Assembly: GCA_003134685.1 (NCBI GenBank)
Contig: PLCA01000009.1
Span: 124,001 to 188,000 of the forward strand
From: Gemmatimonadota bacterium
GTDB taxonomy: Bacteria > Gemmatimonadota > Gemmatimonadetes > Gemmatimonadales > Gemmatimonadaceae
DNA: 64,000 bases
Direction of reading: 5' to 3'
The notes under the pieces were generated by a model that did no database searches, was not told the origin of the DNA, and saw nothing but the letters and a program-made list of their open reading frames with translations. Positions 730-48,804 of this stretch are shown piece by piece. A program made the position numbers and the translations under genes. Positions within the stretch are counted from its first letter, which is position 1; every line of letters begins with the position of its first letter.

Positions 730-1155
730 ATGAGCACGGATTCAAACACCGGGACCTCAGTCGCGCTTTCGCTCGCGCCCATGCTGTCAGTTCGGAACGG
801 TGCGCGGGCAGTTGAGTTCTACAAGACGGCGTTCGGCGCGAACGAGGGCTATCGTGTGGAGGATCCCGGGGGCTCCGTTGTGTCTCGGCTGTCCATTGAC
901 GGTGCGGAGTTTTGGGTGAGTGACGAGTCCCCCGAGCACGGCAACTTCAGTCCGGAGTCCCTGGGCGGTGGTTCTGTCCGGATGATCTTGACTGTGCCGG
1001 ATCCGGATGCAGTGTTCGCTCGGGCACTTGCGGCAGGGGCTCGAGAGATCTCCGCGGTCGAGGAAGCGTATGGGTGGCGTGTGGGTCGCGTGGTAGATCC
1101 ATTCGGTCATCACTGGGAGATCGGACGCCAACTTGCGGATAATTCCGTCACGTAA
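730..1155 (+). CDS. VOC (glyoxalase/bleomycin-resistance) superfamily protein, PhnB-like
   Basis: 141 aa. The start ATG at 730 follows GGAGGG by 3 nt. The chain shows one VOC module of paired beta-alpha-beta-beta-beta units: MLSVRNGARAVEFYKTAFGA (residues ~19-38) and the closing VVDPFGHHWEIG near residue 125, both typical of PhnB-like members. VOC proteins include dioxygenases, isomerases and drug-binding proteins that use a metal or only the fold. The usual HxE metal set cannot be assigned with confidence here, so no substrate is proposed. It stands alone, transcribed away from the GNAT gene and towards uxaC. Confidence 0.85.
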   Translation: MSTDSNTGTSVALSLAPMLSVRNGARAVEFYKTAFGANEGYRVEDPGGSVVSRLSIDGAEFWVSDESPEHGNFSPESLGGGSVRMILTVPDPDAVFARALAAGAREISAVEEAYGWRVGRVVDPFGHHWEIGRQLADNSVT

Positions 1156-1191
1156 CAAAAGTCCCGAGCATCATTTCGCTCTCTCGCTGGA

Positions 1192-2607
1192 TCAGGTTAG
1201 CCGATAAGCCCGCTTGGCGAGATCGTACGCGAGGGCTTTAGCCATCTCGCTCGCGTCGGCCATGTCGACCACGTGACGCGCAACGAGACCGCCGAGATAA
1301 TTCGCGTCCACGCGTCGAGCGAGATCATGGCGAGCTGGGATCGAGCAGAACGCGCGCGTGTCATCCGTAAAGCCGGCCGTATTCCCGATGCCGGCAGTCT
1401 CGGTGGTCTGCCGGCGAAAGCGCGTCAATCCTTCGATCGAATCGTGGAACCACCACGGCGCGCCAAGAAGCATTGCTGGATAGTGACTCGCGAGCGGCGC
1501 AAGCTCGCGGCTGTACGTTGACTCGTCGAGCGTGAACACGATGAGCTGAAAGCGCGCGTCATTCCCATACGCGTTGAGCAGGGGACGCAGGTTGCGCGTG
1601 AATTCGGTCGCCACCGGGATGTCTCCGCCCCGATCCGCTCCAAAGCGCCGATGCACGAGCTCGTTATGATCCCGCAGCGAGCCCGCGTGCAGCTGCATGA
1701 CGAGCCCATCGTCCACCGACAGGCGCGCCATCTCCATGAGGAGATGGGCCTCGAAGCGCGCCTGGTCGTCCTCGGTCGCCGCGCGTTGGCCGGCCTTCGT
1801 GAACAAGCGCTCGGCCTCTGCGTCCTTGAGTCGTTCGGTGCGGGGAATTACGACGGCGTGATCCGTCGCGGACCCGCCCATCGCCTTGAAGTCGGCGCGT
1901 CGCCTCGCCAACGCCCTCACCAGCTCGGCGCAACTTCCGATCGTGCCGCCACCGGCGTGCTCCAGGCGCGCCACCTCCGCCGACCAACCCGGCGCCGCGA
2001 TCCGGAATAGTGCGTCCGGCCGAAATGTCGGAATCACGCGACCGCCGAGCTCGACGTTGCGCAGCGTCTTGTGGTGCTCGAGCGTGTCACTGGCGGCGTC
2101 GGTCGTCGCCAGCACTTCGATGTTGAATCGCTTGAATAGGGCGCGCGGACGGAACTCCGGCGACTGCAATCGCTCCACGATCGCGTCGTACACGAACGGC
2201 GCGGACGCCGAATCAAGCTCGCGTTGAATGCCGAACACCTCGCGCAGCTGGTACTCGAGCCACGCGCGCGACGGTGTCGCGCGAAAGAGTTGCCAGTGGT
2301 CGGCGAATGTCTGCCAGATCTTGCGCGGATCCCGCTCCGCGTGGGGCGGCTTCCCGTCTATTGGTGCGACGCCGAGCGACTCGAGTGGCACGCCGCGGGA
2401 GTAGAGCATCCGGAGGATGTAATGGTCCGGCGTGATGATGAGCGACGCCGGATCCTGGAACGCGTCATTGGACGCGAGGATCGCGGGATCGACGTGCCCG
2501 TGCGGAGAGATGATCGGCAGCGCGCGGGTCTGGTCGTACAAGACGCGCGCATGTTGCCGAACTACTGGGTCGGGATCGAAATAGCGATCCTCGTGGAGCT
2601 CGGTCAC
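1192..2607 (-). CDS. uxaC: Uronate isomerase (glucuronate/galacturonate isomerase)
   Basis: Isomerises D-glucuronate to D-fructuronate and D-galacturonate to D-tagaturonate, the first cytoplasmic step of hexuronate breakdown. The 471-aa chain matches the family length. It has the metal-binding HGH motif near the N-terminus (ISPHGHVDP), then HWQLFRATPSRAWLEY and the C-terminal GAPWWFHDSIEGL and DDTRAF segments that mark UxaC. The frame stays open upstream to 2742, but a GTG at 2607 overlaps the stop of the preceding gene as GTGA, fits the E. coli protein and gives the right length, so it was chosen. It is the last gene of the six-gene hexuronate operon. Family assignment is secure. Confidence 0.93.
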   Translation of the reverse strand: MTELHEDRYFDPDPVVRQHARVLYDQTRALPIISPHGHVDPAILASNDAFQDPASLIITPDHYILRMLYSRGVPLESLGVAPIDGKPPHAERDPRKIWQTFADHWQLFRATPSRAWLEYQLREVFGIQRELDSASAPFVYDAIVERLQSPEFRPRALFKRFNIEVLATTDAASDTLEHHKTLRNVELGGRVIPTFRPDALFRIAAPGWSAEVARLEHAGGGTIGSCAELVRALARRRADFKAMGGSATDHAVVIPRTERLKDAEAERLFTKAGQRAATEDDQARFEAHLLMEMARLSVDDGLVMQLHAGSLRDHNELVHRRFGADRGGDIPVATEFTRNLRPLLNAYGNDARFQLIVFTLDESTYSRELAPLASHYPAMLLGAPWWFHDSIEGLTRFRRQTTETAGIGNTAGFTDDTRAFCSIPARHDLARRVDANYLGGLVARHVVDMADASEMAKALAYDLAKRAYRLT

Positions 2608-3947
2608 ACCACCGGCTTCCACCGCGGGTCGTACTCGCGCGACCAGAGCTTCGCCGCTTCTTCGTCGTGGAGGATGTGTCCGGTCTTCGGATCGGTCGTG
2701 AGCTTGCGACCGAGCTGCTGCGAGATCGTCCCAAGATGGCAAAGTGTTCCGGTCTTCGCTCCATCCTCGATGGGCGCGGAGAGCTTGGTCCCCGTGCGCA
2801 CGGCGCTCGTGAAGTTGTCGATGTGGAGTTGCGTCAGCCAGTCGTCACCGAGCGTATTCAGGGCGTCGCCCTTTGGGGCCGCCTTCACTTCCTTGACGAT
2901 CTTGTTCTTGAGATCGTAGACGACGTAGCCGTCCCGATCGACTACCACGCTGCCGTGGGTGCCGAGGACTGTGGTGCCGCGCGAACGCTCGTAGAGATCC
3001 AGCCCGTTGCAGCTCTGCCCCTGCCAGATGATGCTCTTGCCCCCATCGAACACCCACGTCGCTTCCTGCGTGTCGGGAAACTGCCAGTCGTCAGCGTAGT
3101 GAAAGCGTCCGCCGGTCGAGTTGACGCTCGTCGGATAGTCTACGCCGAGCAGCCAACGCCCTACATCGATCTCGTGTGTTCCATTGTTGCAGATCTCGCC
3201 GGTTCCCCAATTGGTGAACCAGTGCCAGTTGTAGTGGATGACGTTGTCGCGATAGGGAGTGCGCGGAGCGGGGCCCTGCCACAGCTCGTAGTCGAGATTC
3301 GAGGGCACCGGAACGACTTTGCCTTTGCCGATTCCGGTGCGCGTGTTGGCGTACCAGGCGCGCGCGAGATAGGGCGTTCCGATTTGACCGCCACTAATCA
3401 ACTGCTTGACTTCAATGAAGTGCGGACCCGACCGAGCCTGGGTGCCGAGCTGTACGTGCAGCTTGTTGTGCTTGCGCGCGGCGGCGACGATCAGCTCGTC
3501 CTCGCGCGGGTCGTGCCCGCTCGGCTTCTCGACGTACACGTGCTTCCCGGCGTCGAGCGCGAGAATCGTGGCGGGCGCGTGCCAGTGATCCGGCGCGGCG
3601 ATGACGAGCGCGTCGACGTTCTTGTCCTCCAGCACTCGGCGAAAATCGGTCACCGTCTTCGGGGGCGTCGCCTGCAACTTCGATGTTTCCGCCAGCGCTT
3701 TCGCAAGCACCGTCGAGTCGACGTCACAGAGATAGCCGACGGTCGTGTTGGTGCCCCGCGCGAAATCCTGCGCGTGCACCATTCCGCGTCCGTTCAGCCC
3801 CATCACGGCCACCACCATCTTCTCGGCCGGCGATCCGTCAAATGCCAAGAGGGGGCCGACCCCGCGTGACGCGGCGAACGCGCCCAGGCCTGCAACAGAT
3901 GCCTTCTTCAGAAAATCACGGCGGTCCAGCGGTTCTTTAGGTGTCAT
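2604..3947 (-). CDS. Tat-exported Gfo/Idh/MocA family oxidoreductase
   Basis: 447 aa. Starts at ATG 3947 after GGAGATGTC. The N-terminus has a twin-arginine signal (LDRRDFLKKASVAGLGAFAA), so the folded, cofactor-loaded enzyme is probably exported. The Rossmann fold begins at VVAVMGLNGRGMVHAQDF; VEKPSGHDPREDELI is the conserved E-K-P substrate/cofactor loop, and NGTHEIDVGRWLLG matches the H-x-x-D region of this family. Members oxidise sugars or cyclitols with NAD(P). It lies 14 bp after the DUF1080 lipoprotein gene and overlaps uxaC by 4 bp, so it is probably used to process a uronate-containing or 3-keto sugar before or during uptake; that role is inference. Upstream reading frame to 4187 is not coding. 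Confidence 0.9.
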   Translation of the reverse strand: MTPKEPLDRRDFLKKASVAGLGAFAASRGVGPLLAFDGSPAEKMVVAVMGLNGRGMVHAQDFARGTNTTVGYLCDVDSTVLAKALAETSKLQATPPKTVTDFRRVLEDKNVDALVIAAPDHWHAPATILALDAGKHVYVEKPSGHDPREDELIVAAARKHNKLHVQLGTQARSGPHFIEVKQLISGGQIGTPYLARAWYANTRTGIGKGKVVPVPSNLDYELWQGPAPRTPYRDNVIHYNWHWFTNWGTGEICNNGTHEIDVGRWLLGVDYPTSVNSTGGRFHYADDWQFPDTQEATWVFDGGKSIIWQGQSCNGLDLYERSRGTTVLGTHGSVVVDRDGYVVYDLKNKIVKEVKAAPKGDALNTLGDDWLTQLHIDNFTSAVRTGTKLSAPIEDGAKTGTLCHLGTISQQLGRKLTTDPKTGHILHDEEAAKLWSREYDPRWKPVV

Positions 3948-3961
3948 GACATCTCCGAGTG

Positions 3962-4936
3962 CTACCGAGGGCGAATCTTGATATTCCGGAAAAAAACTTC
4001 GTCGACGTGATCCTGCAGAACGATGTGCCCCGCGCGCTTTTCTGCGAAGCCCTTTATGTCCCGATATTTGCTTTTCGCCATGAGCGAGTCCAACAGAGGC
4101 GTGCCGAGCTCGAACTCGACGACTTTGTTTCCATTCAGCCAGTGCTCGCCGTGATTTCCGCGAAACACTATCCTCGACGAATTCCATTGACCCACGGGCG
4201 CCAGTACCTTGTTCGCGTTCGGCGGGATGAGATCGTAGAGCGCGCCGGTGCGGTGTGACGGAACCTTGTTGTCCTCGTGAAGACTGTCGTCGAGCATCTG
4301 GTACTCATACCCAAGGGCGGCGTGGTTGGGTGCATTTGCCATCGAGATCTCTTCGGACACGTTGTATTTCACGCCACTGTTCCCCGCGCGGCTGATCTTC
4401 CAGTCCCATGTGAGCTCGAAATCACGATAGGTGTCACGGGTCATGAGATCACCGCCGGCCGCCGGCTGGCCATCCGGCAGTCGCGGGACCTGGCCGTCCG
4501 CGAGTTTTCTGATCGCGCCGTTCTCGATCTTCCAATGAGCCGTGGGAACGCTATCGTAGCCGAGCCCGCGCCAGCCGTCGAACGTCTTGCCGTCGAAGAG
4601 CAGACGCCATCCCCCGCGCCGCTCGTCATCCGTTAACGTGTTCGGGCAAAACACAATCACTTGGGGCAAGCTCCCCCTCATTGAATCGGGCCGAACCGCC
4701 CCGCTTGAATCGGCCGGCCAGGCTCGACCCACCAAGCCACTGCTGACAACACCATACTGCGCTCCCGGGCATTGAACTCCTGCGAGGTCGGGAGATTTGC
4801 GAGGCGCGCAGGCAGTCAGGACGATAGACAAGATGAATCCCGTTCTGGCGAGCCACGTTGCGGCGACCGGCGTTCTAGATGTCCTCGCAGCGGCGGACAG
4901 CACTCTGGCGGACTGCATTCTATAGTAGGGCGTCAT
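3962..4936 (-). CDS. DUF1080 (3-keto-disaccharide hydrolase domain) lipoprotein
   Basis: 324 aa. Its ATG at 4936 overlaps the transporter stop as ATGA. A hydrophobic stretch ends in the lipobox LTAC (~residues 41-44), so the mature protein is probably lipid-anchored in the envelope. The DUF1080 concanavalin-like domain runs from WRLLFDGKTFDGWRG to the end, with the typical SRAGNSGVKYNV and FRGNHGEHWLNGNKVVEFE stretches. This fold has been tied to hydrolysis or binding of 3-keto-glycosides. Together with the neighbouring Tat-exported oxidoreductase it could form a periplasmic 3-keto-glycoside pair feeding hexuronates to the transporter (inference). A non-homologous ~75-aa region with several cysteines separates the lipobox from the domain. 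Confidence 0.88.
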   Translation of the reverse strand: MTPYYRMQSARVLSAAARTSRTPVAATWLARTGFILSIVLTACAPRKSPDLAGVQCPGAQYGVVSSGLVGRAWPADSSGAVRPDSMRGSLPQVIVFCPNTLTDDERRGGWRLLFDGKTFDGWRGLGYDSVPTAHWKIENGAIRKLADGQVPRLPDGQPAAGGDLMTRDTYRDFELTWDWKISRAGNSGVKYNVSEEISMANAPNHAALGYEYQMLDDSLHEDNKVPSHRTGALYDLIPPNANKVLAPVGQWNSSRIVFRGNHGEHWLNGNKVVEFELGTPLLDSLMAKSKYRDIKGFAEKRAGHIVLQDHVDEVFFRNIKIRPR

Positions 4937-33746: not shown

Positions 33747-36700
33747 TCATGCGGCCACAGCCGTTGCGTGCACCGCCGCCAGTACTCCTACTAGCTCATC
33801 GACCTGTCCCGAACTGAAGAGCCCATCTGGGCCGCGCGGGGTGAGGTCAGTGAACGGTGATTCATAGAGAAGCGTTGCCGCCATCACACCGTGCGCAGTG
33901 AGATGGTTCACGATCAAGTTCACGAACTCGATCTGGTTCCCGGCGAGAACCTTTCCGGTTAGAAACCCTCCCATCGCCGCCTTCGCCGCCTCGCGGTCAA
34001 GGCCAACCAGAGAACGCACGAAAAGTCCTAGCCCGTGGGATTCGACCGCGGCCCGCCGAATATCCTCTGCGGCGCCGACGCCATTCTCCGCGAGCATTTG
34101 CTCAAGCTCTGATAGATCAGTTGCCGTCAGCGGTTTGTTCATTCGTAGTTTGCGGATTGCGACGTGATCGAGGTGCGCGCGAAGGAAGGCCTGCGCCTTC
34201 GCCCGAAACTTTGCGTAGTCTGCCCCCTCGCCGATGCCGGGAAGCGCGACCGCGCTTTCCCCACCAATCTCATCCTCGAAGTCCGTGTATATGGGCTTGC
34301 GTTTCTGTTTATCAATCAGCTTGATCAGATCTCGCAGACGCCGGCGCATGCCTTCGAGCATCGGTACTGTCACGTCCTGCCACCACTCGTCGGTCTGCAC
34401 GTCCTGGATGAGTGCCATCTGATCGCGCACCATCGGTATCGCGGATTTTTCCTCCAGCAGACCGGCTAGCTCCTTGACCTGTTCGCGGAGCCGCACGAAA
34501 CCCGGCTCGGAACGCATCATCGCGAGCTGCAGGCTCAACACAAGCAAATCGAAGCGTTTGGCTTCCTCCCCCTCCGGGTCGAGCTCCGACGGCAGACCCG
34601 CTACTTCGTGTGAGAGCTCCGACAGCGTGTCAGGCGTCAGTACCGTCCAAGCCTCGGGTTTTGCAAACTTCTCGACGATACGACGCTTCGGCCGAACGAC
34701 GAAGTTGTCGACGTTCATGGCCGCGGTCTCCCTGTGCAGAACCTCGGCGACTGCATGGCGCACTTCGGGTTCGGAAGCCGGGTCGCCGTAAGTGGTCGCG
34801 GGCGCCTTGACTACGCCGCCTTCCGCCGCGTTGCGCTGGTCTAATTCGCCGATCAACTCCAACCGCGCGTTGAACAGGCGCTTGCCGAGCGAGGCGCCCA
34901 GCGCCCCTTCGGTGGCTTCAGGATTCTCACCGAAATACTCGAGGTTTTGGCAGTAGTCAAAGATATAGAAGAACTTCTTATCGTCCCCAGGACCGAACAG
35001 ATCCGGCCGGAGACGCGTGCCACGTCCTACCATCTGCCAGAACTTTGTCTTCGAGCGCACCAGCTTGAAGAACACGAGGTTCACGACCTCAGGGATGTCG
35101 ATGCCGGTGTCGAGCATGTCGACCGAGAGTGCGATGTGCGGCGCCTTGTCCTTCGCCGAAAAGCTCTCGATCAGATTCTGGGCGTATTCAGTCTTGAAAG
35201 TGATCACGCGCGCGAACTCGCCCTTATAGTGTGGGTAATTCGCGTTGAAACGCTCGGCGATGAAATCAGCGTGAGCCTGGTTTTTTGCGAAAAGAATCGT
35301 TTTGCCGAGGCGGTCACCACCCGCGACTGTGATGCCGTGCGTCATCAGGTGCGCCAGCACCTTGTCTACTGTGTCCTTATTAAAGAGCCATTTGTTGACG
35401 GCCGCGGCGTCAACACGATCCGGAACGTTTCCCTCATCATCCCATTCCAGCGCATCCCACTGATCCTTGTCGTCTTCAGATAGATCTTCGTATTTGATCC
35501 CTTCGCGCTGGAACTTGAGGGGCACTGACACGGCCTTTGGCGGCACGAGGAAGCCGTCTCGCACCGCCTCTTCAAGCGAGTACGCGTCGGTCGGCACGCC
35601 ATTCTCCAGATCGAACAGACTGTAAGTGTTGCGATCCACCTCGTCCTTCGGCGTAGCCGTGAGTCCGACCAGAAGGGAATCGAAGTAGTCGAAGATCGCA
35701 CGGTATTTCTGAAAGACCGAGCGATGCGCCTCGTCGATTATGACAAGATCGAAATGGCCCACACCGAATCGCCGCTGGCCGTCTTTCGTGTCGTCGATTA
35801 GCCCCATCATCGTCGGATACGTCGAGATGAAGACACGCCCATCGGCTTCCTTGTCGGTCACCAGGTTCACCGGCGACGCATCCGGAAGAAATGCCTTGAA
35901 GGCGTTGACGGCCTGCTTAACCAGCGCCACGCGGTCGGTAAGGAACAACACGCGCTTGGCCCAGTTGCAGCGCGTCAACAGGTCAGCCAGCGCGATCACC
36001 GTGCGGGTTTTGCCGGCGCCGGTGGCCATCACCATTAGAGCTTTGCGGTCATGGTCGCGCTCGAAGCTCTCCGCTATGCGCCGGATGCCACGCGTCTGGT
36101 AGTAGCGTTCGACTATAGCAGGGTTGATCTCTGCCGCCGTCAACGACTTTCGGATGCTGAGCCGCTGGATTGCAAGCTCCAGCTCGGCCTTCTTATAGAA
36201 GCCCTGAACTGCGCGCGGCGGGTAGTTTGTGTCATCCCAGAACCAGTGCTCGTATCCGTTGGAGTAGAAGATGAGAGGGCGCTGACCAAACTGCCGCTCC
36301 AGACAGTCGGCGTAGAGTTTGGCTTGCTGCTGCCCAACACGCGAGTCGCGTCGAGTGCGCTTGGCTTCGACGAGCCCCAGTGGCTTGCCGTCATCGCCCC
36401 ACAGCACATAATCGACGAAGCCCTTGCCCTTGTTGTTGGGCATTCCGCTGACTTCGAACTCGCGGGCGCGTGCCTGGTCGAGTGGCCATCCAGCTTCCTT
36501 GAGAAGCAAATCGATGAAGTAGTCGCGGGTCTCAGCTTCGGAGTAATCGTGCGTGTCCGGTTGCACAGCTGCGGCTCGCTTCGCTTCCGCCACCTCAGCG
36601 CGCAGCCGCTTCAGCTCCTCATCAAGCGTGGTCTTGTCAGCCAGCAGAGAAGCAAGTTTCTCGTCACGATCGTGCAACGCGGCCTCGAGCTGCAGCAACT

Positions 36701-37157
36701 GCTCGGCGGTTTGCTTGGGGCCGCCTGCGGCTTGGGGCAGCAGAGCTTCATCGAACGACAGCCCTGGCGCCGGCCGTGTCACGCGGCCGTAGGTGTACGC
36801 GAGCCAGTACGTCACATGGAAAAGCTCGCGCACCGCAACCAATCCATCGTCTACTGGAATCGCGCGGTGTCCGTGGACTGCGCGGTTACCTAGGGTGTTG
36901 ATCACACGAGCCTTACTGAAAACCGCCTCGCCCGCGGTCGCTTTGAAGCTCGGTTCGTGGATCAGTGCCGAGAGATTGTCCTGATAGGGCAACTGAAGGG
37001 CGGCGTCGTGCTTATAGGCCCAGGCGATGGCTAGTTCGAGTGCTCGGCGGGCGTAGAAGCACGCTGTACGGGGGTCCGCGAGCACGGCACCTTCTGCTGC
37101 TGCGGTGGCGTCGAACAGCGCCAGCCATTCGCTCTTAAGGAAGCTGAACTGGCTCAT
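33747..37157 (-). CDS. hsdR: Type I restriction endonuclease subunit R with N-terminal DUF4145
   Basis: 1136 aa from ATG 37157 (MSQFSFLKSEWLALF). Domains: DUF4145 (~1-125, with RAVHGH), coiled coil (~150-200), HsdR N-terminal PD-(D/E)xK nuclease (FVDYVLWG with D249, LGLVEAKR with E264 and K266), and the SF2 motor with Walker A ATGAGKT (378-384), DEAH (475-478), motif III LTATP and motif VI GRGTR. The C-terminal ~330 residues are the helical HsdR C domain. It cleaves DNA after translocation when both strands lack HsdM methylation. Upstream frame to 37412 is not coding. It follows hsdS by 205 bp. Confidence 0.94.
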   Translation of the reverse strand: MSQFSFLKSEWLALFDATAAAEGAVLADPRTACFYARRALELAIAWAYKHDAALQLPYQDNLSALIHEPSFKATAGEAVFSKARVINTLGNRAVHGHRAIPVDDGLVAVRELFHVTYWLAYTYGRVTRPAPGLSFDEALLPQAAGGPKQTAEQLLQLEAALHDRDEKLASLLADKTTLDEELKRLRAEVAEAKRAAAVQPDTHDYSEAETRDYFIDLLLKEAGWPLDQARAREFEVSGMPNNKGKGFVDYVLWGDDGKPLGLVEAKRTRRDSRVGQQQAKLYADCLERQFGQRPLIFYSNGYEHWFWDDTNYPPRAVQGFYKKAELELAIQRLSIRKSLTAAEINPAIVERYYQTRGIRRIAESFERDHDRKALMVMATGAGKTRTVIALADLLTRCNWAKRVLFLTDRVALVKQAVNAFKAFLPDASPVNLVTDKEADGRVFISTYPTMMGLIDDTKDGQRRFGVGHFDLVIIDEAHRSVFQKYRAIFDYFDSLLVGLTATPKDEVDRNTYSLFDLENGVPTDAYSLEEAVRDGFLVPPKAVSVPLKFQREGIKYEDLSEDDKDQWDALEWDDEGNVPDRVDAAAVNKWLFNKDTVDKVLAHLMTHGITVAGGDRLGKTILFAKNQAHADFIAERFNANYPHYKGEFARVITFKTEYAQNLIESFSAKDKAPHIALSVDMLDTGIDIPEVVNLVFFKLVRSKTKFWQMVGRGTRLRPDLFGPGDDKKFFYIFDYCQNLEYFGENPEATEGALGASLGKRLFNARLELIGELDQRNAAEGGVVKAPATTYGDPASEPEVRHAVAEVLHRETAAMNVDNFVVRPKRRIVEKFAKPEAWTVLTPDTLSELSHEVAGLPSELDPEGEEAKRFDLLVLSLQLAMMRSEPGFVRLREQVKELAGLLEEKSAIPMVRDQMALIQDVQTDEWWQDVTVPMLEGMRRRLRDLIKLIDKQKRKPIYTDFEDEIGGESAVALPGIGEGADYAKFRAKAQAFLRAHLDHVAIRKLRMNKPLTATDLSELEQMLAENGVGAAEDIRRAAVESHGLGLFVRSLVGLDREAAKAAMGGFLTGKVLAGNQIEFVNLIVNHLTAHGVMAATLLYESPFTDLTPRGPDGLFSSGQVDELVGVLAAVHATAVAA

Positions 37158-37362
37158 CACAACTGTGTCGAGTCTCCGAATCGCGCAGTCGTTAGCGTGG
37201 CGAAGATAAGCAGCAGCCGCTGATGCAAAGCTTCCGGCACTTTCACAGATATAGCTCGGACGGTGAATCGAAACGCCAGCCGCAAGGGGCGCCAGCGAAT
37301 CGTTCCGCAGAGTGCGGTATAATCCTGCACGGGCTTTGTGTCGAAGCAGCAGGGCGATGAGT

Positions 37363-38547
37363 TCACAGTTCGCCGCGAAAGGCGCGATGTTGGAGGCAGG
37401 CAAAAAGCGCATCCATTTCGATGATGGCGGCGAGCTGGCGATCTTTTAGACGACGAATCTCGTCGACTTGCACCGCAAACCTTCTCTGGAGATCAAGAGA
37501 CGGCAATGGAATTTGAATCTCGCGAACCATAGTAAGATTGAGGTTCTTTTGGCGCACTCCTCGTTGTTGGCGGCGAAAATGTTCACGACCCACCACAATT
37601 GCGAAGTAGACATAGATGGACTCCGCGACTTGGTTGTCTATTCGTGCGAAGGCGACTGCTTGATTGCACGAGCAATCGACGCCTGCGATGCCAGCCTTTA
37701 GAGCCGCACTGTCGTACATGCCTAGCATCAAAGAGCCGAGGGGCACAGGCTTGGCCGACGTTTCGAGAAGTGCGCTAGCGGTAACGCGCTCCTTGCTCTG
37801 AAACAAGTACATCTGATCAAGTTCGCCGGAGGAGAACCAAGGGACCGTCCCGCCGAAATATTCTGTCCTCTCCCGCGGTGGCGTCCCACCACTCTGCCAG
37901 TCTCCAAGATCGCTTAGCGCAATTGTCGGCAAGGCCTTCGTATTTTCTGCGGGGTGGCCGAACATATTCAGGAAGATGGATTGGGTAAGGACATCAAGTT
38001 GGCCCAGCGCGGCACGACGTTTGGCACGCAGCGCGTCCGCTTTATCTAAAACCTCCGCGATCCGCTGCTGCTGGGAGAGGGGTGGGAGTGGGATTCTGAT
38101 CTTGCCCAGATTCCCGCGGGAGATTCTGGAGCGAGTAGTTCCAGTCGCGTAGCGAGCAATCTGATTTCGGCTGGCTGGCCCGTTCAAACAGTGCATCAAC
38201 CATCGCAAATCGTGTTTCTTGGCGTCCGGACGAATTATGCAAACGTCCACCACGGTCACCGAGGGTTTCGAGTCGCCAGGGAAGATGCATGCGCGTCCAA
38301 GCGGATCGGGCATCCGCGCCACCAGCACGTCACCGGGCTCTAGGAATGTGCATCGGAGTGCGCGTGCCCTGTCGCTGGTCAGAAATCGATCCGACTTGTC
38401 GACGTATTCACCGTCCCCCACATCCGCTAACTGGACTAGACGGACATCTCCGTCGGGGTCTTGGTCCTTCGACTCGACCCAGTCGCCATCTACGAACACT
38501 TCGGCGGACGCCAAAGCATCTTGGAGTGTGACTATCGGCCAGTTCAC
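37363..38547 (-). CDS. hsdS: Type I restriction-modification specificity subunit S
   Basis: 394 aa. Two target recognition domains are each followed by a conserved helical spacer: IRIPLPPLSQQQRIAEVLDK near residue 155-175 and IQIPLPSLDLQRRFAVQVDE near 345-365, the normal duplicated HsdS layout. The subunit sets the bipartite DNA target for both methylation and restriction. Its ATG overlaps the hsdM stop (ATGA). The two TRDs differ from each other, so the target has two unlike halves; the sequence cannot be read out here. Confidence 0.93.
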   Translation of the reverse strand: MNWPIVTLQDALASAEVFVDGDWVESKDQDPDGDVRLVQLADVGDGEYVDKSDRFLTSDRARALRCTFLEPGDVLVARMPDPLGRACIFPGDSKPSVTVVDVCIIRPDAKKHDLRWLMHCLNGPASRNQIARYATGTTRSRISRGNLGKIRIPLPPLSQQQRIAEVLDKADALRAKRRAALGQLDVLTQSIFLNMFGHPAENTKALPTIALSDLGDWQSGGTPPRERTEYFGGTVPWFSSGELDQMYLFQSKERVTASALLETSAKPVPLGSLMLGMYDSAALKAGIAGVDCSCNQAVAFARIDNQVAESIYVYFAIVVGREHFRRQQRGVRQKNLNLTMVREIQIPLPSLDLQRRFAVQVDEIRRLKDRQLAAIIEMDALFACLQHRAFRGEL

Positions 38548-40082
38548 TCCAGCATCCTCTCCAACTCCTTCATGCCTCGCTCAATCTCCTCTTCCAGTTT
38601 CGCGAGGTCGGCAAGGATCTGCTTGGGCGCACGAAATTCAATCTCTTCGCGCGTCATCTCTTTGTAACGGTTAAGGGAGAGGTCATAGCCCTGGGCGGCG
38701 ATGTCGGTCTTGATCACGCAAAAGCTTTGCGCGGTGCGCGGGCGTTCTCTCTCAGTACCGTTGCGCTCGGCCCAACGTGCCAGCACGTCGGGGAGGTTGT
38801 TTTTTTCGTGCTCCTGGGCACCGAGTGCGGCGCGCGGAATGGCTCCGAGCTTTTCGTCCGGAAGCTGTGCCGTGCGTTTGTCATCGAGGCTCCACCCGTC
38901 CGCCTCGACGTCGTAGAACCAAACCTGATCGGTGCCACCGGAATTGGTCTTGGTGAAGAGCAGTATCGCCGTAGACACACCCGCATAGGGCTTGAACACG
39001 CCGCCGGGCAACTTGACCACGGCATCCAGCTTCTGGTCTTCGACCAGCATTCGGCGCAGCTCCTTGTGCGCATTGGTGGAGCCGAACAGCACGCCGTCGG
39101 GCACGATAACCGCGGCGCGGCCACCCGGCTTCAGAAGGCGCAAGAACAGCGCGAGAAAGAGCAATTCGGTCTTCTTCGTCTTGACGATTTGCAGAAGGTC
39201 CTTCGCGGTGTTCTCGTAGTCCAGGCTGCCGGCGAAGGGTGGATTGGCCAGCACTAGCGTGTACTTCTCCTCTTCGCCTGCGTGATCTTGGGCGAGCGAG
39301 TCGCGGTAACGGATATCCGGGTTCTCAACACCGTGCAGGAGCATGTTCATGCTGCCGATGCGCAACATGGTATTATCGAAGTCGAACCCGTGGAACAACC
39401 CGCCGTGGAAGTGTTCGCGCAGCTTCGCGTCGTGCAGGATGTTGGGGTGCCGCTCGCGCAGCACCTCGCCCGCCGCGACGAGGAAGCCAGCTGTGCCGCA
39501 GGCCGGATCGCAGATGATGTCGGTGGGCTGCGGCCTGGTCATCTCCACCATCAGCCGGATGATGTGACGTGGTGTGCGAAATTGGCCGTTCTGCCCAGCG
39601 CTGGCGATCTTGCCGAGCATGTACTCGTACAGGTCGCCCTTGGTGTCGCGATCCTCCATCGGCACGGCGTCGAGCAGGTCCACAACCTTGGCCAGCAGAG
39701 CCGGCGAGGGAATAGTGAAGCGCGCATCCTTCATGTGGTGCGCGTAAGTGGAGTCGTCGCCGCCGAGCGTGCGCAGGTACGGGAAGACGTGCTCGGCCAC
39801 GACCGTGAACATCTCGGCTGGCGCCAGATGCTTGAAGCGAGACCACCGCAGGTCATCGTAAGGGCGTCCTTTGGCATCCGCGCCCTCCGGGAATACGCGC
39901 CGCTCCATCGGACGCTTCAGGCGGGCCGACTTATTCTCCTCTAGCGTGTGCAGGTCGTCCAGGCGGCGAAGGAAGAGCAGATAGGTAATCTGTTCGATGA
40001 CCTCCAGCGGATTGGAGATTCCGCCGGTCCAGAAAGCGTTCCAGATCTGGTCGATCTGGCTTTTGATGGCACCGGTGATCAT
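38544..40082 (-). CDS. hsdM: Type I DNA methyltransferase subunit M
   Basis: 512 aa. The N-terminal helical domain (SQIDQIWNAFWTGGISNPLE, LLFLRRLDDLHTLEE) precedes the N6-adenine methyltransferase domain with SAM motif DPACGTAGF (192-200) and catalytic NPPF (280-283). The C-terminal helical part ends KQILADLAKLEEEIERGMKE. Methylates adenine within the HsdS target. First gene of hsdM-hsdS-hsdR, all on the minus strand; the operon begins right after the pseudogene at 40167-40628, with no visible promoter assigned. Confidence 0.95.
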   Translation of the reverse strand: MITGAIKSQIDQIWNAFWTGGISNPLEVIEQITYLLFLRRLDDLHTLEENKSARLKRPMERRVFPEGADAKGRPYDDLRWSRFKHLAPAEMFTVVAEHVFPYLRTLGGDDSTYAHHMKDARFTIPSPALLAKVVDLLDAVPMEDRDTKGDLYEYMLGKIASAGQNGQFRTPRHIIRLMVEMTRPQPTDIICDPACGTAGFLVAAGEVLRERHPNILHDAKLREHFHGGLFHGFDFDNTMLRIGSMNMLLHGVENPDIRYRDSLAQDHAGEEEKYTLVLANPPFAGSLDYENTAKDLLQIVKTKKTELLFLALFLRLLKPGGRAAVIVPDGVLFGSTNAHKELRRMLVEDQKLDAVVKLPGGVFKPYAGVSTAILLFTKTNSGGTDQVWFYDVEADGWSLDDKRTAQLPDEKLGAIPRAALGAQEHEKNNLPDVLARWAERNGTERERPRTAQSFCVIKTDIAAQGYDLSLNRYKEMTREEIEFRAPKQILADLAKLEEEIERGMKELERMLE

Positions 40083-40166
40083 GTCAGGATACTTCGATTC
40101 CGTTCGAATGAAGTCAAATGGAGTTTTCAGCCCATTGGAAAGGTGCCATGTATGGGCCTCAGGGCA

Positions 40167-40628
40167 CTAGGTAATCTGGATCAGCCAATTTGGTTGCCGC
40201 CTCCACATCAGCGAGCAAGCCAAAAACGAAAAGCGCGGTCGAGCACCGTCCAGTCTGGCGGAAGGTCGATCTTTGCGCGACCTGTGAGCCATCCCAGGTC
40301 GATGATTCCGACTCGCCTGCCTCCCTCGAACACCGCGAAGCTGCGCCTGAAGATGTTCGCACTTCGCAGCTTGACTCTTCGTTTGAAGAGCTCGACGTCG
40401 AGATTCGACCGCCACCACTTCGGCTTCGTGGCTCGCGCAAGGATTTGTCTCTTGCACTCGATCACGTAGTTGCCGCCGATAACCTGGTCGTTAAAAGCTG
40501 TAGCGTCCGTCGGCGAGATCAAGCTTCGCCGTCTCATGCCATAGAGATCTCTCCATTTCCCCGACGACCTTGCCGCTATCAAGGAACTGGAAATTCCACG
40601 AGAACAACGTGCGAACTGCGATGAGCAA
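40167..40628 (-). pseudogene. Frameshifted copy of the LURP-one-like gene
   Basis: Nucleotide sequence closely matches the intact gene at 29721-30185 from the shared GGAGG and TTG start (40628) to the shared stop region (40169-40167). Relative to the intact gene it has a 2-bp loss after RYSF that creates TAA in the first frame, and a further 1-bp loss near the C-terminus (LACSL region), so the product is split over three frames. The segment WWRSNLDVELFKR is identical in both. It is a decayed paralogue next to hsdM. Confidence 0.85.
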
Positions 40629-40718: not shown

Positions 40719-41192
40719 CTAGTTATCTCGTGCGTCTTGGCTAAAGGCCCAGACTACAACTGCACCCAAGCCAAGCCACGTCAATCCATCTCGCTTCTGT
40801 TTTTGCGTAGCTCTAACGAAAACGTTTCGCTGGAGCCACTTCAGCCCGCTCGCCGGGTTTTTGTAAAGCGGGAGGTACTTTGTACCGCGCAGGAATCCAG
40901 TCGGCGAGGCGGACTTATGAAGGACGATGGGTATGATCGGCTTTCTCTTTCCCTTGGCTATCCCAATTTCCTGTGGGACCCAATCAGAGGCCGATGCGTG
41001 GTGACTCCACAGAAGTATAAAGACGTCGCAACGGTCAATCGCATCGACAATCGCCTGATCGAGGTCCGACCCGGGGTCAATGGATGAATCTGCAAGAAAT
41101 ACTTTGCATCCGGGGCGCTCCAGGATTCCTCTCACTTCTGTCGCTCGACTCAAATCACGTGTCGAATAACTAATGAATACTTCAAATGCCAT
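40719..41192 (-). CDS. TIR domain protein with C-terminal hydrophobic segment
   Basis: 157 aa. TIR domain at residues 1 to ~115: FEVFISYSTRDLSRATEV (box 1), VFLADSSIDPGSDLDQAI (BB loop), CDVFILLWSHHASASDWV and the catalytic-type glutamate E75 in VPQEIGIAKGK, the position used for NAD hydrolysis in prokaryotic TIR enzymes. A C-terminal stretch (LTWLGLGAVVVWAFS) could insert in the membrane. TIR proteins in defence islands often act as effectors that deplete NAD. No sensor gene (STING, CBASS synthase, Argonaute, Thoeris ThsA) is next to it, so its trigger is unknown. Confidence 0.88.
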   Translation of the reverse strand: MAFEVFISYSTRDLSRATEVRGILERPGCKVFLADSSIDPGSDLDQAIVDAIDRCDVFILLWSHHASASDWVPQEIGIAKGKRKPIIPIVLHKSASPTGFLRGTKYLPLYKNPASGLKWLQRNVFVRATQKQKRDGLTWLGLGAVVVWAFSQDARDN

Positions 41193-42884: not shown

Positions 42885-43550
42885 GTGCCTATCACTTTCT
42901 CGCGCGAAACCACCGAGTTGATCGGAGTCCTCCGAGAACGAGACTCACGATACGGAACAAAACTCGAGGATATGCTGTTGGGGGCTTTTTACGCGTTCGG
43001 GAACGTTGGGAACCCCGACCGACTACCGCAGGCGGCGCAAAGCATGCGCGAATTGCTAGATCGACTGCCCCTTCAGTACGAAGGGGCTCCGCCCTATGTC
43101 CCAGTGGGCAAGTCTGCAGACCACATGCATGCTATCATCGATCAGTTCGACAAGGCAAAACAGACCTCAACGTGTTTTGACAGGCAAAGATCACAGTGGG
43201 ATGGGACGATCGATGCACCTTTACAAAACCTCTTAGTAACGGTTGACGCGATTGTCGACGAACAAAAAAAAGCAGTCTCAAAGCAAGAACGAAAGAAGAG
43301 GTTCATGCGAGACTTGGACCCGACAGGCGAACCACTTCCCCAAGTCCGGGAAGCATCCGCGTTGAAAAAATGGCGCGATTACGATGACTACTTTCAGAAG
43401 GTCGCCCATCATAATCGGCCGGCGACGCACGACGATTTCGAAGCCAGCATTAATGGTTGCGTGCGGATGCTGCTCGGCCACCTGAAGCCGGCCACTTCGG
43501 CCACGCTAGACGCTCTAGATGAGATAATTAAGAAGGCAGAAAGCAAATGA
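42885..43550 (+). CDS. Unrecognised 221-aa protein, first gene of the two-gene operon
   Basis: 221 aa from GTG 42885. Mainly helical with charged residues; no membrane segment, signal or known catalytic motif. Blocks that may be conserved are FSRETTELIGVLRERDSRYG, DMLLGAFYAFGNVG and the closing WRDYDDYFQKVAHHNRPATHDDF, where W-x-x-Y-x-x-Y-F-x-x-V-A-H-H could be a binding or HEPN-like helix (hypothesis only). A basic stretch (KAVSKQERKKRFMRDL) may touch nucleic acid. Its stop overlaps the start of the 944-aa gene as ATGA, so the two proteins are made together, possibly in equal amounts. Confidence 0.75.
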   Translation: MPITFSRETTELIGVLRERDSRYGTKLEDMLLGAFYAFGNVGNPDRLPQAAQSMRELLDRLPLQYEGAPPYVPVGKSADHMHAIIDQFDKAKQTSTCFDRQRSQWDGTIDAPLQNLLVTVDAIVDEQKKAVSKQERKKRFMRDLDPTGEPLPQVREASALKKWRDYDDYFQKVAHHNRPATHDDFEASINGCVRMLLGHLKPATSATLDALDEIIKKAESK

Positions 43551-46381
43551 TCGACAGGGAATTAGTGCGGAAGGCCCTCGCTTCCATTCAAAGGCGAAGC
43601 GAATACGAGTATTTCTTCTCGAAGCTTTCGTCATCGGAGTGGATCACACCCCTTTACGATGAAGGCCATTTCGATGACCCCCCCGCTGCCATAAGCGAGG
43701 GCGAGTACATCCGGTTTCCGAGTTGGCCGGAGGGCGAATTCCTGGCGCGGATCGCTGCTGATGCGCCGGAGCAAGCGGCCAAGGTGCTTGCGAGCGTGGC
43801 ACCCACCGATAACGCGTTGGTTCATTTGAACCTAGTCGATGTCGCCCTAAAGATTGCACCTTCGCAAGCGGCTCGGTGGGCCAAAGGAGAAGCAAAATGG
43901 ATCGCCGCCCAGCCGTTCTTGCCGCTGCTTCTTCCGGAAAAGCTTGCTGAATTGGCGTCACATCTAGCCAGAAGTGGGGAAACGGAGACCGCCCTCCGGC
44001 TAAGTAAGGCGCTTCTCGAAGTGTTGCCCGATTCAAAACAGCCTGGTTCTGAAGCCCAATACCGGCTACCGCCACAAGCGCGCGCGAAGTTTGATGCGTG
44101 GCAGTACTCGAGGACAGTCGGCGTGGTGCTGCCATCATTGTTGGAGGCTGTCGGCGCGGACGCGTTGAAGCTTTTCGGCGACTTGCTGGACGACGCGCTG
44201 AAACTATCCTCGGTGGAACCATCGCAATCGCCGCGCGACTACTCTTTTATCTGGCGAGATGCGATTGAGTCTAGTGACGACGACACGCGGGATATCCGCG
44301 ATGCGTTGGTAAGTGCGGTTCGGGATGCAGCCACGCGATTGGCGGCCCTCAAGGGCTGCGATTCCGTGCTGGCAGATCTACAGTCTCGATCGTGGAACGT
44401 ATTTCGGCGCATAGCGATTCACGTCATTCGTGTTGCTTGCTCGGAGTCGCCAGAAATTGTGGGGGAAACCATTCTCTCGCGTGATTTATTTGACGATGCG
44501 ACTGTGTACCATGAGTACGCCATGTTGGTGCGGGACAAGTTCAGTTTGCTGACTGACCCACAGCGTGAGTCGTGGCTGGCATGGGTCGAGGAGGGGAAAG
44601 GGCGCGAGGGAATGCGACGGCGCCATTTAGAGGCAACTGGCGAGGAGCTTGACCAGAAGCTCGAAGATCAGTGGAACGAGCAATGGCAAAGGGATCGGCT
44701 TTCACCAGCCCGCGATTCCCTACCTAAACATTGGCGGGATCGTTTCGATGACTTTGTGCGACGATACGGTCCACCAGAGTTTGATTATGCACTTCACCGA
44801 GTAAATGTAGGATGGGGAACGCCGAGTCCCATAGGTCGCGAACAGCTTGCCCACCTTACGCCGACGGAAGTACGGAGCTTCATAGCTGGCTGGAAACCGA
44901 CCGGCAATGGTCCACGAGAACCGTCCGAAGAAGGTCTTGTTGACGCTCTGAGGGCGATGGACGAAGGTTTTTTTGAGAACCAAGCAGCCGAGGCTGAGAA
45001 ATGGGATAAGCTGCCTGCGCCCTATATCGCGGTGCTTTTTTCGGGAGCCGAAAGGGCGGTAAAGGCCGGTCGCCGAATCGCATGGAGCAATCTGCTGGAG
45101 TTGGCTGAGTCGGTGATTGCTGCAGATCGCGGTGAGGCTGAACGGCATTGGGTACGAAAATCAATCGCAGACTTGCTCCTCACGGGGTTTGATAGTGATT
45201 CGTCAAATCCACCGATGGCGGAGAAAGATCGGCTCTGGAAAGTTCTTTCGAGCCTTTCCGCAACAGCGCTCGCAGAAGACAGCGAACGTCCGGTTTCTGA
45301 CGAGGTCGATAGTCTGACTGTAGCGATCAACAGCGCCTCGGGTCGCGTTCTAGAAGCCCTAATTCGTTACGCGGTATGGATAAGAAAGAACACCTTCAAA
45401 CCTGAAAAGAATTGGCTTCTGGTCAGCGAGCTACCGGCCGTTGCCGAGGTTCTCGACAAATGGATACGTCCGGACGCCATATCGCTTATCGATGCACGTG
45501 CCATGTTTGGACTGCAGCTTGGCCCGCTGATGTGGCTCGATCGAGAGTGGGTGATAGAACGAAGGGATCTCCTCTTTCCTACCAACCCGGCATTTGCGCG
45601 CGCATGGGCGGCCACGTGGAACACATTCCTTGCTTACGGAAATCCATTTGGCTCGGCGCTCGACGATTTTCGCGAGGAATATTCGCGATCAGTCGAGCAG
45701 CTGCAGTCTGGGTCTGAACGTAAAGGCCGCAGTGATCCCGATGAGCGTCTTGCTGACCATCTCATGACGTACTTCTGGCAGGGTTTCCTCCGAAGAGAGA
45801 GCAAAGACAGACTCTTAGAAAAATTCTTCGAATTCGGGGACGCAAAACTTCGAGCCCACGCGATCGACTTTATTGGTCGAAGTCTGCATCAATCGGACGA
45901 TGTTCCGCCTGAACCCCTCCGTCTCCTGCGAGAGTTGCTCGAGTGGCGGCTGACAAAGGCGAAACAAGCAAAATCCGGTGCCGGCAAGAAAACGGATACC
46001 GAGGAATTGGTGGCCTTCGGATGGTGGATAGCTTCGGGCCAGTTCGACCCTGAATGGTCACTCAATCGCTTGATTGAGGTGCTTGAACTGGCTGGCCGCT
46101 CCGAGCCGGACCACATGGTAGCTGAACAATTGGCCAAGTGGGCAATCGCTTACCCACGCCAAACTGCTCACGCGCTTCGACTGATGATCGAAGGCATGCA
46201 GGAGATTTACTCGTTGGTCGGATGGAGAGACGAAGCAACGCAAACACTTAAGATCCTATTGGCAAGCCCAGATGAACTGGTAAGGCAAGAAGCGAGAGAC
46301 ATTGTCAACGCGCTGATTGAGCGGCGTTTTGTGGAGTTTAGATCGCTGCTTTCCGGGGGTGAGGGCAAAGCGGCTGATTAG
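43547..46381 (+). CDS. Unrecognised 944-aa helical protein, second gene of the two-gene operon
   Basis: 944 aa, coupled to the 221-aa gene by ATGA. The whole chain reads as alpha-helical repeat-like sequence, rich in Leu, Ala, Trp and charged residues, without Walker, nuclease or protease motifs. The N-terminus ITPLYDEGHFDDPPAAISEG leads into FPSWPEGEFLARIAADAP, and the C-terminal third has RAWAATWNTFLAYGNPFGSA and VAFGWWIASGQFDPEWSLNR. Such helical scaffolds resemble the C-terminal parts of large defence proteins (for example DUF4020-type regions following SIR2), where they sense or bind. The link is by style of sequence only. Cytoplasmic; no enzyme domain is visible in either gene. Confidence 0.8.
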   Translation: MIDRELVRKALASIQRRSEYEYFFSKLSSSEWITPLYDEGHFDDPPAAISEGEYIRFPSWPEGEFLARIAADAPEQAAKVLASVAPTDNALVHLNLVDVALKIAPSQAARWAKGEAKWIAAQPFLPLLLPEKLAELASHLARSGETETALRLSKALLEVLPDSKQPGSEAQYRLPPQARAKFDAWQYSRTVGVVLPSLLEAVGADALKLFGDLLDDALKLSSVEPSQSPRDYSFIWRDAIESSDDDTRDIRDALVSAVRDAATRLAALKGCDSVLADLQSRSWNVFRRIAIHVIRVACSESPEIVGETILSRDLFDDATVYHEYAMLVRDKFSLLTDPQRESWLAWVEEGKGREGMRRRHLEATGEELDQKLEDQWNEQWQRDRLSPARDSLPKHWRDRFDDFVRRYGPPEFDYALHRVNVGWGTPSPIGREQLAHLTPTEVRSFIAGWKPTGNGPREPSEEGLVDALRAMDEGFFENQAAEAEKWDKLPAPYIAVLFSGAERAVKAGRRIAWSNLLELAESVIAADRGEAERHWVRKSIADLLLTGFDSDSSNPPMAEKDRLWKVLSSLSATALAEDSERPVSDEVDSLTVAINSASGRVLEALIRYAVWIRKNTFKPEKNWLLVSELPAVAEVLDKWIRPDAISLIDARAMFGLQLGPLMWLDREWVIERRDLLFPTNPAFARAWAATWNTFLAYGNPFGSALDDFREEYSRSVEQLQSGSERKGRSDPDERLADHLMTYFWQGFLRRESKDRLLEKFFEFGDAKLRAHAIDFIGRSLHQSDDVPPEPLRLLRELLEWRLTKAKQAKSGAGKKTDTEELVAFGWWIASGQFDPEWSLNRLIEVLELAGRSEPDHMVAEQLAKWAIAYPRQTAHALRLMIEGMQEIYSLVGWRDEATQTLKILLASPDELVRQEARDIVNALIERRFVEFRSLLSGGEGKAAD

Positions 46382-46800: not shown

Positions 46801-48804
<2,004 letters not shown>

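Follow-up and report, generated by a model that had tools for sequence, protein, structure and literature searches.

A candidate two-gene Dsr1-like defence system with a putative non-SIR2 effector

What is the function of two overlapping genes that lie among defence genes in a Gemmatimonadota genome and that Pfam leaves unnamed? The genes, here called A and B, are found in a 64,000-nucleotide stretch of contig PLCA01000009.1 (hereafter the window). Gene A (42885–43550) starts with GTG and encodes 221 residues, and gene B (43547–46381) starts with ATG and encodes 944; both are called on the plus strand, where the stop codon of A (TGA) and the start codon of B (ATG) share the sequence ATGA (43547–43550). 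An initial annotation of the window had described this coupling, together with a W-x-x-Y-x-x-Y-F-x-x-V-A-H-H stretch in A, and both observations stand: the two open reading frames (ORFs) and their overlap were verified, and the motif occupies residues 163–176 of A. The pairing is not a chance arrangement, as homologous overlapping or near-overlapping pairs, mostly intact, occur in the same phylum and in Chloroflexota. We consider it probable, though well short of assured, that A and B together make up an abortive-infection system of two genes resembling Dsr1 (defence-associated sirtuin 1), with B as the sensor and A as the probable killing part. Dsr1 has been regarded as a SIR2 NADase system encoded by one gene. 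Direct support for this reading comes from the coupling of A and B, B's homology to Dsr1, the position of A, the existence of A–B fusions, the co-evolution of the two chains and the defence genes that neighbour many copies.

Gene B encodes a long α-solenoid that is homologous to Dsr1 outside the SIR2 part. Its single PADLOC match is Dsr1 (PDLC04166, E = 5.1e-32, 108.6 bits), with residues 228–780 (44228–45886, plus strand) aligned to positions 543–1077 of the 1227 in the model. A split relative on the Vibrio coralliilyticus plasmid pOCN014 (L034, 2843–6584) shows how this region relates to SIR2. Here, two genes with an 8-nt overlap encode a SIR2 protein (P0003, 306 aa, SIR2_2 at 2.2e-18) and a B-type chain (P0004, 942 aa, Dsr1 at 5.6e-113), which align to model positions 5–301 and 311–1213, respectively. 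Because the SIR2 part is contained within the first 300 positions, B is equivalent to the region of Dsr1 that follows SIR2. A SLATT-domain gene lies upstream of the Vibrio pair.

Domain searches with Pfam, PADLOC and NCBIfam found no SIR2 in A or B, while the same search found SIR2 in P0003 and in three fused relatives (L053, L054 and L063). By the same three collections, neither protein has a P-loop NTPase (STAND/NACHT) domain and, by Pfam, neither has a DUF4062 domain. For B, nothing was above cut-off in Pfam, NCBIfam or PHROGs, and a B profile had no match among PDB sequences. The earlier statement that neither protein has a recognised motif is thus correct for Pfam above its curated cut-offs, but not for B when compared with PADLOC. 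The suggestion that DUF4020 might be involved was close to the mark in that B belongs to the SIR2–DUF4020 (Dsr1) protein family, but the domain itself (PF13212) was undetected in B by Pfam at E up to 1; it was detected in the SIR2-fused relatives L053 and L054 and undetected in L063.

The AlphaFold2 model of B, built from 8 sequences, is helical almost throughout, with a predicted local distance difference test (pLDDT) of 78.2 and a predicted template modelling score (pTM) of 0.53. Fold matches in the PDB are generic HEAT-like solenoids (CAND1, the PP2A scaffold and karyopherins), and the best VIA-align Z score of 11.9 is at chance level for helical repeats. In Foldseek, Avs4 (8dgf) is at rank 21 with a template modelling (TM) score of 0.36, and DSR2 is not among the matches listed. 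We took these matches to mean a solenoid only and did not use them to classify B.

If B is the part of Dsr1 that follows SIR2, what occupies the place of SIR2? A separate A gene lies directly upstream of B, overlapping it in most cases, in the window genome and in G043, G063, G138, G152 (which carries two A+B copies), G173 and G309. Further separate pairs are found in a Chloroflexota metagenome-assembled genome (L028) and in G467, G506, G504 and G464 of a Chloroflexota-centred panel. The overlap is 4 nt in the window and L002, and 8 nt in L004, L005, L009, L028 and L045. In other loci (L007, L008, L010–L013, L022, L030, L046 and L048) an A-like domain is fused to B in a single chain of ~1,150 aa; L022 is from candidate division WS1, and L030 is the 1,090-aa fusion WP_331721222.1 from a Streptomyces plasmid. 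Loss of the system is seen in a close relative, G309, where one copy (L009/L029) has a truncated A and a large internal deletion that splits B.

The same slot accommodates quite different modules in other relatives. SIR2 is fused to the B-type chain in L053, L054, L055 and L063 (L055 by sequence only), in addition to the split Vibrio form. In L052 (G354; 856–4212, minus strand) a 1,118-aa frame carries TIR (TIR_2 at 5.9e-12) fused to a Dsr1-type solenoid, which on sequence appears to be an exchange of TIR for SIR2. Four haloarchaeal plasmids encode chains of ~1,360–1,500 aa in which an AAA/NACHT-type NTPase precedes a Dsr1-type solenoid (L031, 3291–7796; L032, 3582–7757; L033, 2579–6670; L035, 2318–6769), with Pfam NTPase matches for L031 and L032 and an existing annotation of AAA ATPase for L033; these proteins are otherwise annotated merely as hypothetical or ATP-binding. 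Finally, DUF4062 (a TIR-like NADase), an NTPase and a Dsr1-type solenoid are joined in one ~1,500-aa chain in L047/L062 (G477, Chloroflexota panel). SIR2, in DSR2, is an antiphage NADase (PMC10981675), and so is DUF4062, which in Swarozyc is triggered by the phage portal (PMC13174449). Since the slot holds the known antiphage NADases SIR2, TIR and DUF4062 in relatives, A occupies the place of an effector.

The pair can be compared with known systems on this basis. Dsr1 and A/B have the same order, with the module in the effector position first and the large helical region second, and the split SIR2+B form has the same overlapping-gene layout as A+B. Unlike Dsr1, A/B is without SIR2, B is without detected DUF4020, and the slot is filled by a separately encoded helical protein of another family. 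The order of effector, control region and C-terminal sensor also recalls the Avs/STAND proteins and Swarozyc, and B-type solenoids do follow STAND-type NTPases in haloarchaea and in one Chloroflexota genome, in one case with DUF4062, but A and B themselves have neither a P-loop NTPase nor a DUF4062 domain by Pfam.

What kind of protein is A? Split A proteins and the fused N-terminal domains belong to one superfamily (hhalign 97%, E = 2e-11), with control pieces of B giving 0.5% or less. Across an alignment of 21 A-type domains, the arginine of an R-E pair (R55 in the window protein) is found in all members, followed in all by glutamate or aspartate, while W163 and H175 are each present in 20. 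R55 and E56 (43047–43052, plus strand) are candidate active-site residues, and the stretch from W163 to H175-H176 is at 43371–43412 on the same strand. A histidine three residues ahead of R55 occurs in 18/21; the window protein has glutamine there.

The window protein (P0001) matches pP_pnuc_1 (PF18165, the predicted pPIWI-associating nuclease) at 3.7e-4 and 20.6 bits, below the gathering cut-off of 26.3. This family is matched by seven of the eight A proteins (best E = 2.1e-4), every match falling under the gathering score, with P0001 covering the first half of the model and A of L051 the second. Compared with four pP_pnuc_1-type proteins, the A superfamily aligns mostly over the N-terminal half (hhalign 93.7%, E = 1.9e-7). 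The match is weak but in register, and R-E followed by a distal histidine is common to both families in that order; pP_pnuc_1 domains differ in lying at the C-terminus of 280–390-aa proteins that are unpaired with B. We take A to be a distant relative of pP_pnuc_1 and not a member by Pfam's rule. The comparison supplies a functional hypothesis for pP_pnuc_1-like families. A nuclease activity of A is at most faintly suggested, by remote resemblance to a family listed in Pfam as a predicted nuclease; the term is the prediction of that family's authors, and no tested activity was found in the literature searched. One pP_pnuc_1-type protein, on the Dinoroseobacter shibae plasmid pDSHI01 (L069, 5536–6453), lies beside reverse transcriptase and DNA polymerase genes in a conjugation region.

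Other searches with A returned little. An A profile against PDB sequences recovered nothing but pieces of Hsp70, Dpp9 and similar proteins, which we took as chance, and PHROGs gave no meaningful match. Relatives of A were found in no viral contigs and, by tblastn, on no plasmids. A HEPN-like identity, raised by the initial annotation, is disfavoured on sequence, as no HEPN Pfam model matches any A-type protein and the R-x4-6-H motif is not conserved: the family has R-E in an N-terminal helix and then a distal histidine.

A could instead be an adaptor or oligomerisation module, with B sensing, A assembling, and another protein such as the nearby TIR or restriction enzyme doing the damage. We regard this as unlikely, although it survives better than the other alternatives. 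Adaptor domains are found at comparable N-terminal sites in other conflict systems, the low-confidence model of A is all-helical, no catalytic family was above cut-off for A, and in the window a TIR gene is 1.7 kb from the pair. What speaks for an enzyme is that the same slot holds the enzymes SIR2, TIR and DUF4062 in related proteins, and that the polar residues R-E, W and H hardly vary among 21 divergent members. Nor does a third gene recur in most homologous loci. A gene for a DNA methylase–HNH fusion lies 13–17 bp upstream of A only in two related Chloroflexota-panel genomes (L074, 6633–8027; L075, 6894–8381), where it may add a third component to the system or constitute a restriction system of its own.

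For A and B as effector and sensor, how strict is the pairing? A profile search of 346 genomes of the window's phylum found 8 copies of A in 7 genomes, and all 8 are directly 5′ of B. As the profile was built from these pairs, their recovery is expected, and the informative point is that no unpaired copy was found. The remaining intact B copies in this panel carry a fused A-like domain; a match in G006 is a 125-aa fragment and was left out of the count. When 32 B-type chains were placed in a tree, all those with A, whether split or fused, intermingled in one clade (support 98/95) that spans four bacterial phyla. Chains with TIR and with split SIR2 are sister to each other (100/99), a relationship that points to exchange of effectors. 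Some rows of this tree are long-branched or oddly composed, so that its deep order is unsure. Pairwise distances of A and B are correlated, with r = 0.84 over 20 pairs, 0.94 for split pairs and 0.92 with close relatives thinned (permutation p about 2e-4), a correlation to which general lineage divergence also contributes.

A toxin–antitoxin-like arrangement, in which A would be a toxin and B a mere neutraliser serving element maintenance, without sensing of phage proteins, would be consistent with coupled small and large genes and with a patchy, mobile-like distribution (14/346 genomes, 4%) with relatives on plasmids. We consider it improbable: B, at 940 aa, is far bigger than usual antitoxins and is homologous to a known sensor chain, A–B fusions exist, and homologues of B come with NADase and STAND effectors, in the manner of known sensors. 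It is very improbable that the two proteins work in housekeeping, as a non-defence scaffold or chaperone pair. HEAT-like solenoids do have many roles, and the top structural matches of B are generic, but presence in 4% of the phylum sample, defence neighbours and homology to Dsr1 do not suit such a role. That the pair is a drifting remnant of Dsr1 after loss of SIR2 is scarcely credible, for despite the decayed fragments at 40159–40624 and the decayed homologous copy in G309, both ORFs are intact, A is conserved in step with B, and intact full-length homologues at ~30% identity indicate long-term selection.

If A and B do form a Dsr1-like system, how might it work? A precedent for the sensor and effector roles (PMC10973363) is DSR2, whose C-terminal sensor captures tail tube protein in its monomeric form and switches on the effector at the N-terminus (PMC10981675). 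The plan of DSR2, with an effector at the N-terminus and a helical sensor of a phage protein at the C-terminus (PMC10981675, PMC10973363), resembles that proposed for A/B; DSR2 differs in that its effector is SIR2, and no search matched B to DSR2. The C-terminal regions of DSR1 and DSR2 have little sequence in common (PMC10973363). By analogy, A and B would interact, and B would hold inactive A in a complex in the uninfected cell. During infection, a phage protein, perhaps a structural one such as the tail tube, would bind the solenoid of B, and the resulting change in shape would release or activate A. Active A would then act as a toxic effector, damaging a cellular component and so stopping the infection, with abortive infection as the expected outcome. 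Nucleic acid is our first guess for the substrate, made from the distant pP_pnuc_1 link alone; it is possible but rather doubtful.

Several points weigh against this interpretation. The pair is known here from sequences alone, and the phage trigger is proposed by analogy. The match of B to Dsr1 is strong but remote, at 108.6 bits compared with 376.8 for the SIR2-paired Vibrio chain in PADLOC, and among solved PDB structures none is close to DSR1 by sequence. For A, the AlphaFold2 model (7 sequences) is all-helical but of low confidence (pLDDT 58.7, pTM 0.28), so that neither a fold nor an active site can be assigned from it; Foldseek with this model gave no match at E below 5. The residues conserved in A could have a structural role. 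Lastly, the neighbouring genes described below were picked by hand on size and position, and are an observation, not a statistic.

How much of such a system would be new? The initial annotation suggested a possible unnamed two-component system against phages or plasmids. Conserved pairing, fusions, effector exchange in the slot and defence neighbours favour an unnamed defence system, with evidence that leans neither way on plasmid interference, but B is not unrecognised: the Dsr1-type sensor is already known, and the novelty is partial, consisting of effector A and the exchange of effectors. We found no paper on a non-SIR2 effector with the Dsr1 C-terminus, nor one on DUF4020, in the open-licence papers searched. 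A further proposal, which we find plausible but hold only tentatively, is that A founds an unrecognised class of antiphage effector enzyme. Such an enzyme would be all-helical, with an R-E...W...H site and a distant relationship to pP_pnuc_1. It would be the first non-NADase effector known to be driven by a Dsr1 sensor, in a family whose members swap SIR2, TIR, DUF4062, STAND and A modules, either separate or fused. The data suggest that the C-terminal chain of Dsr1 is a general sensor platform for four or more kinds of effector module, of which one (A) is without known biochemistry. This makes the question of whether the same sensor can drive different modes of killing directly testable. We also predict that annotation pipelines miss such systems, since neither gene is named by Pfam and a PADLOC Dsr1 match without SIR2 would probably go uncalled.

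Defence genes adjoin many copies of the pair. The copy in L078 adjoins a type IIG restriction enzyme and a homologue of PD-Lambda-4_A, and the copy in L080 adjoins genes for HsdR, a YgjP-like protease and a Ser/Thr kinase, on the same strand. Beside other copies are a PDC-M71A homologue (L073), a GmrSD-type gene (L076) and a DUF4365-TPR gene (L079). L072 has weak mad8/HerA-type matches, and no defence family was seen beside the copy in L071.

The neighbourhood of restriction–modification and TIR genes described for the window by the initial annotation was confirmed. A stand-alone TIR protein of 157 aa (40719–41192, minus strand; TIR_2 at 2.3e-20) with a hydrophobic C-terminal tail precedes the pair, and no partner was identified for it. 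Downstream of B is a housekeeping gene, DNA gyrase B-like (46801–48744), a name given from its sequence with no family search behind it. Upstream of the pair, a complete type I restriction–modification operon encoding HsdM, HsdS and HsdR occupies 33747–40082 on the minus strand, and the apparent decayed ORF fragments at 40159–40624 lie just before it.

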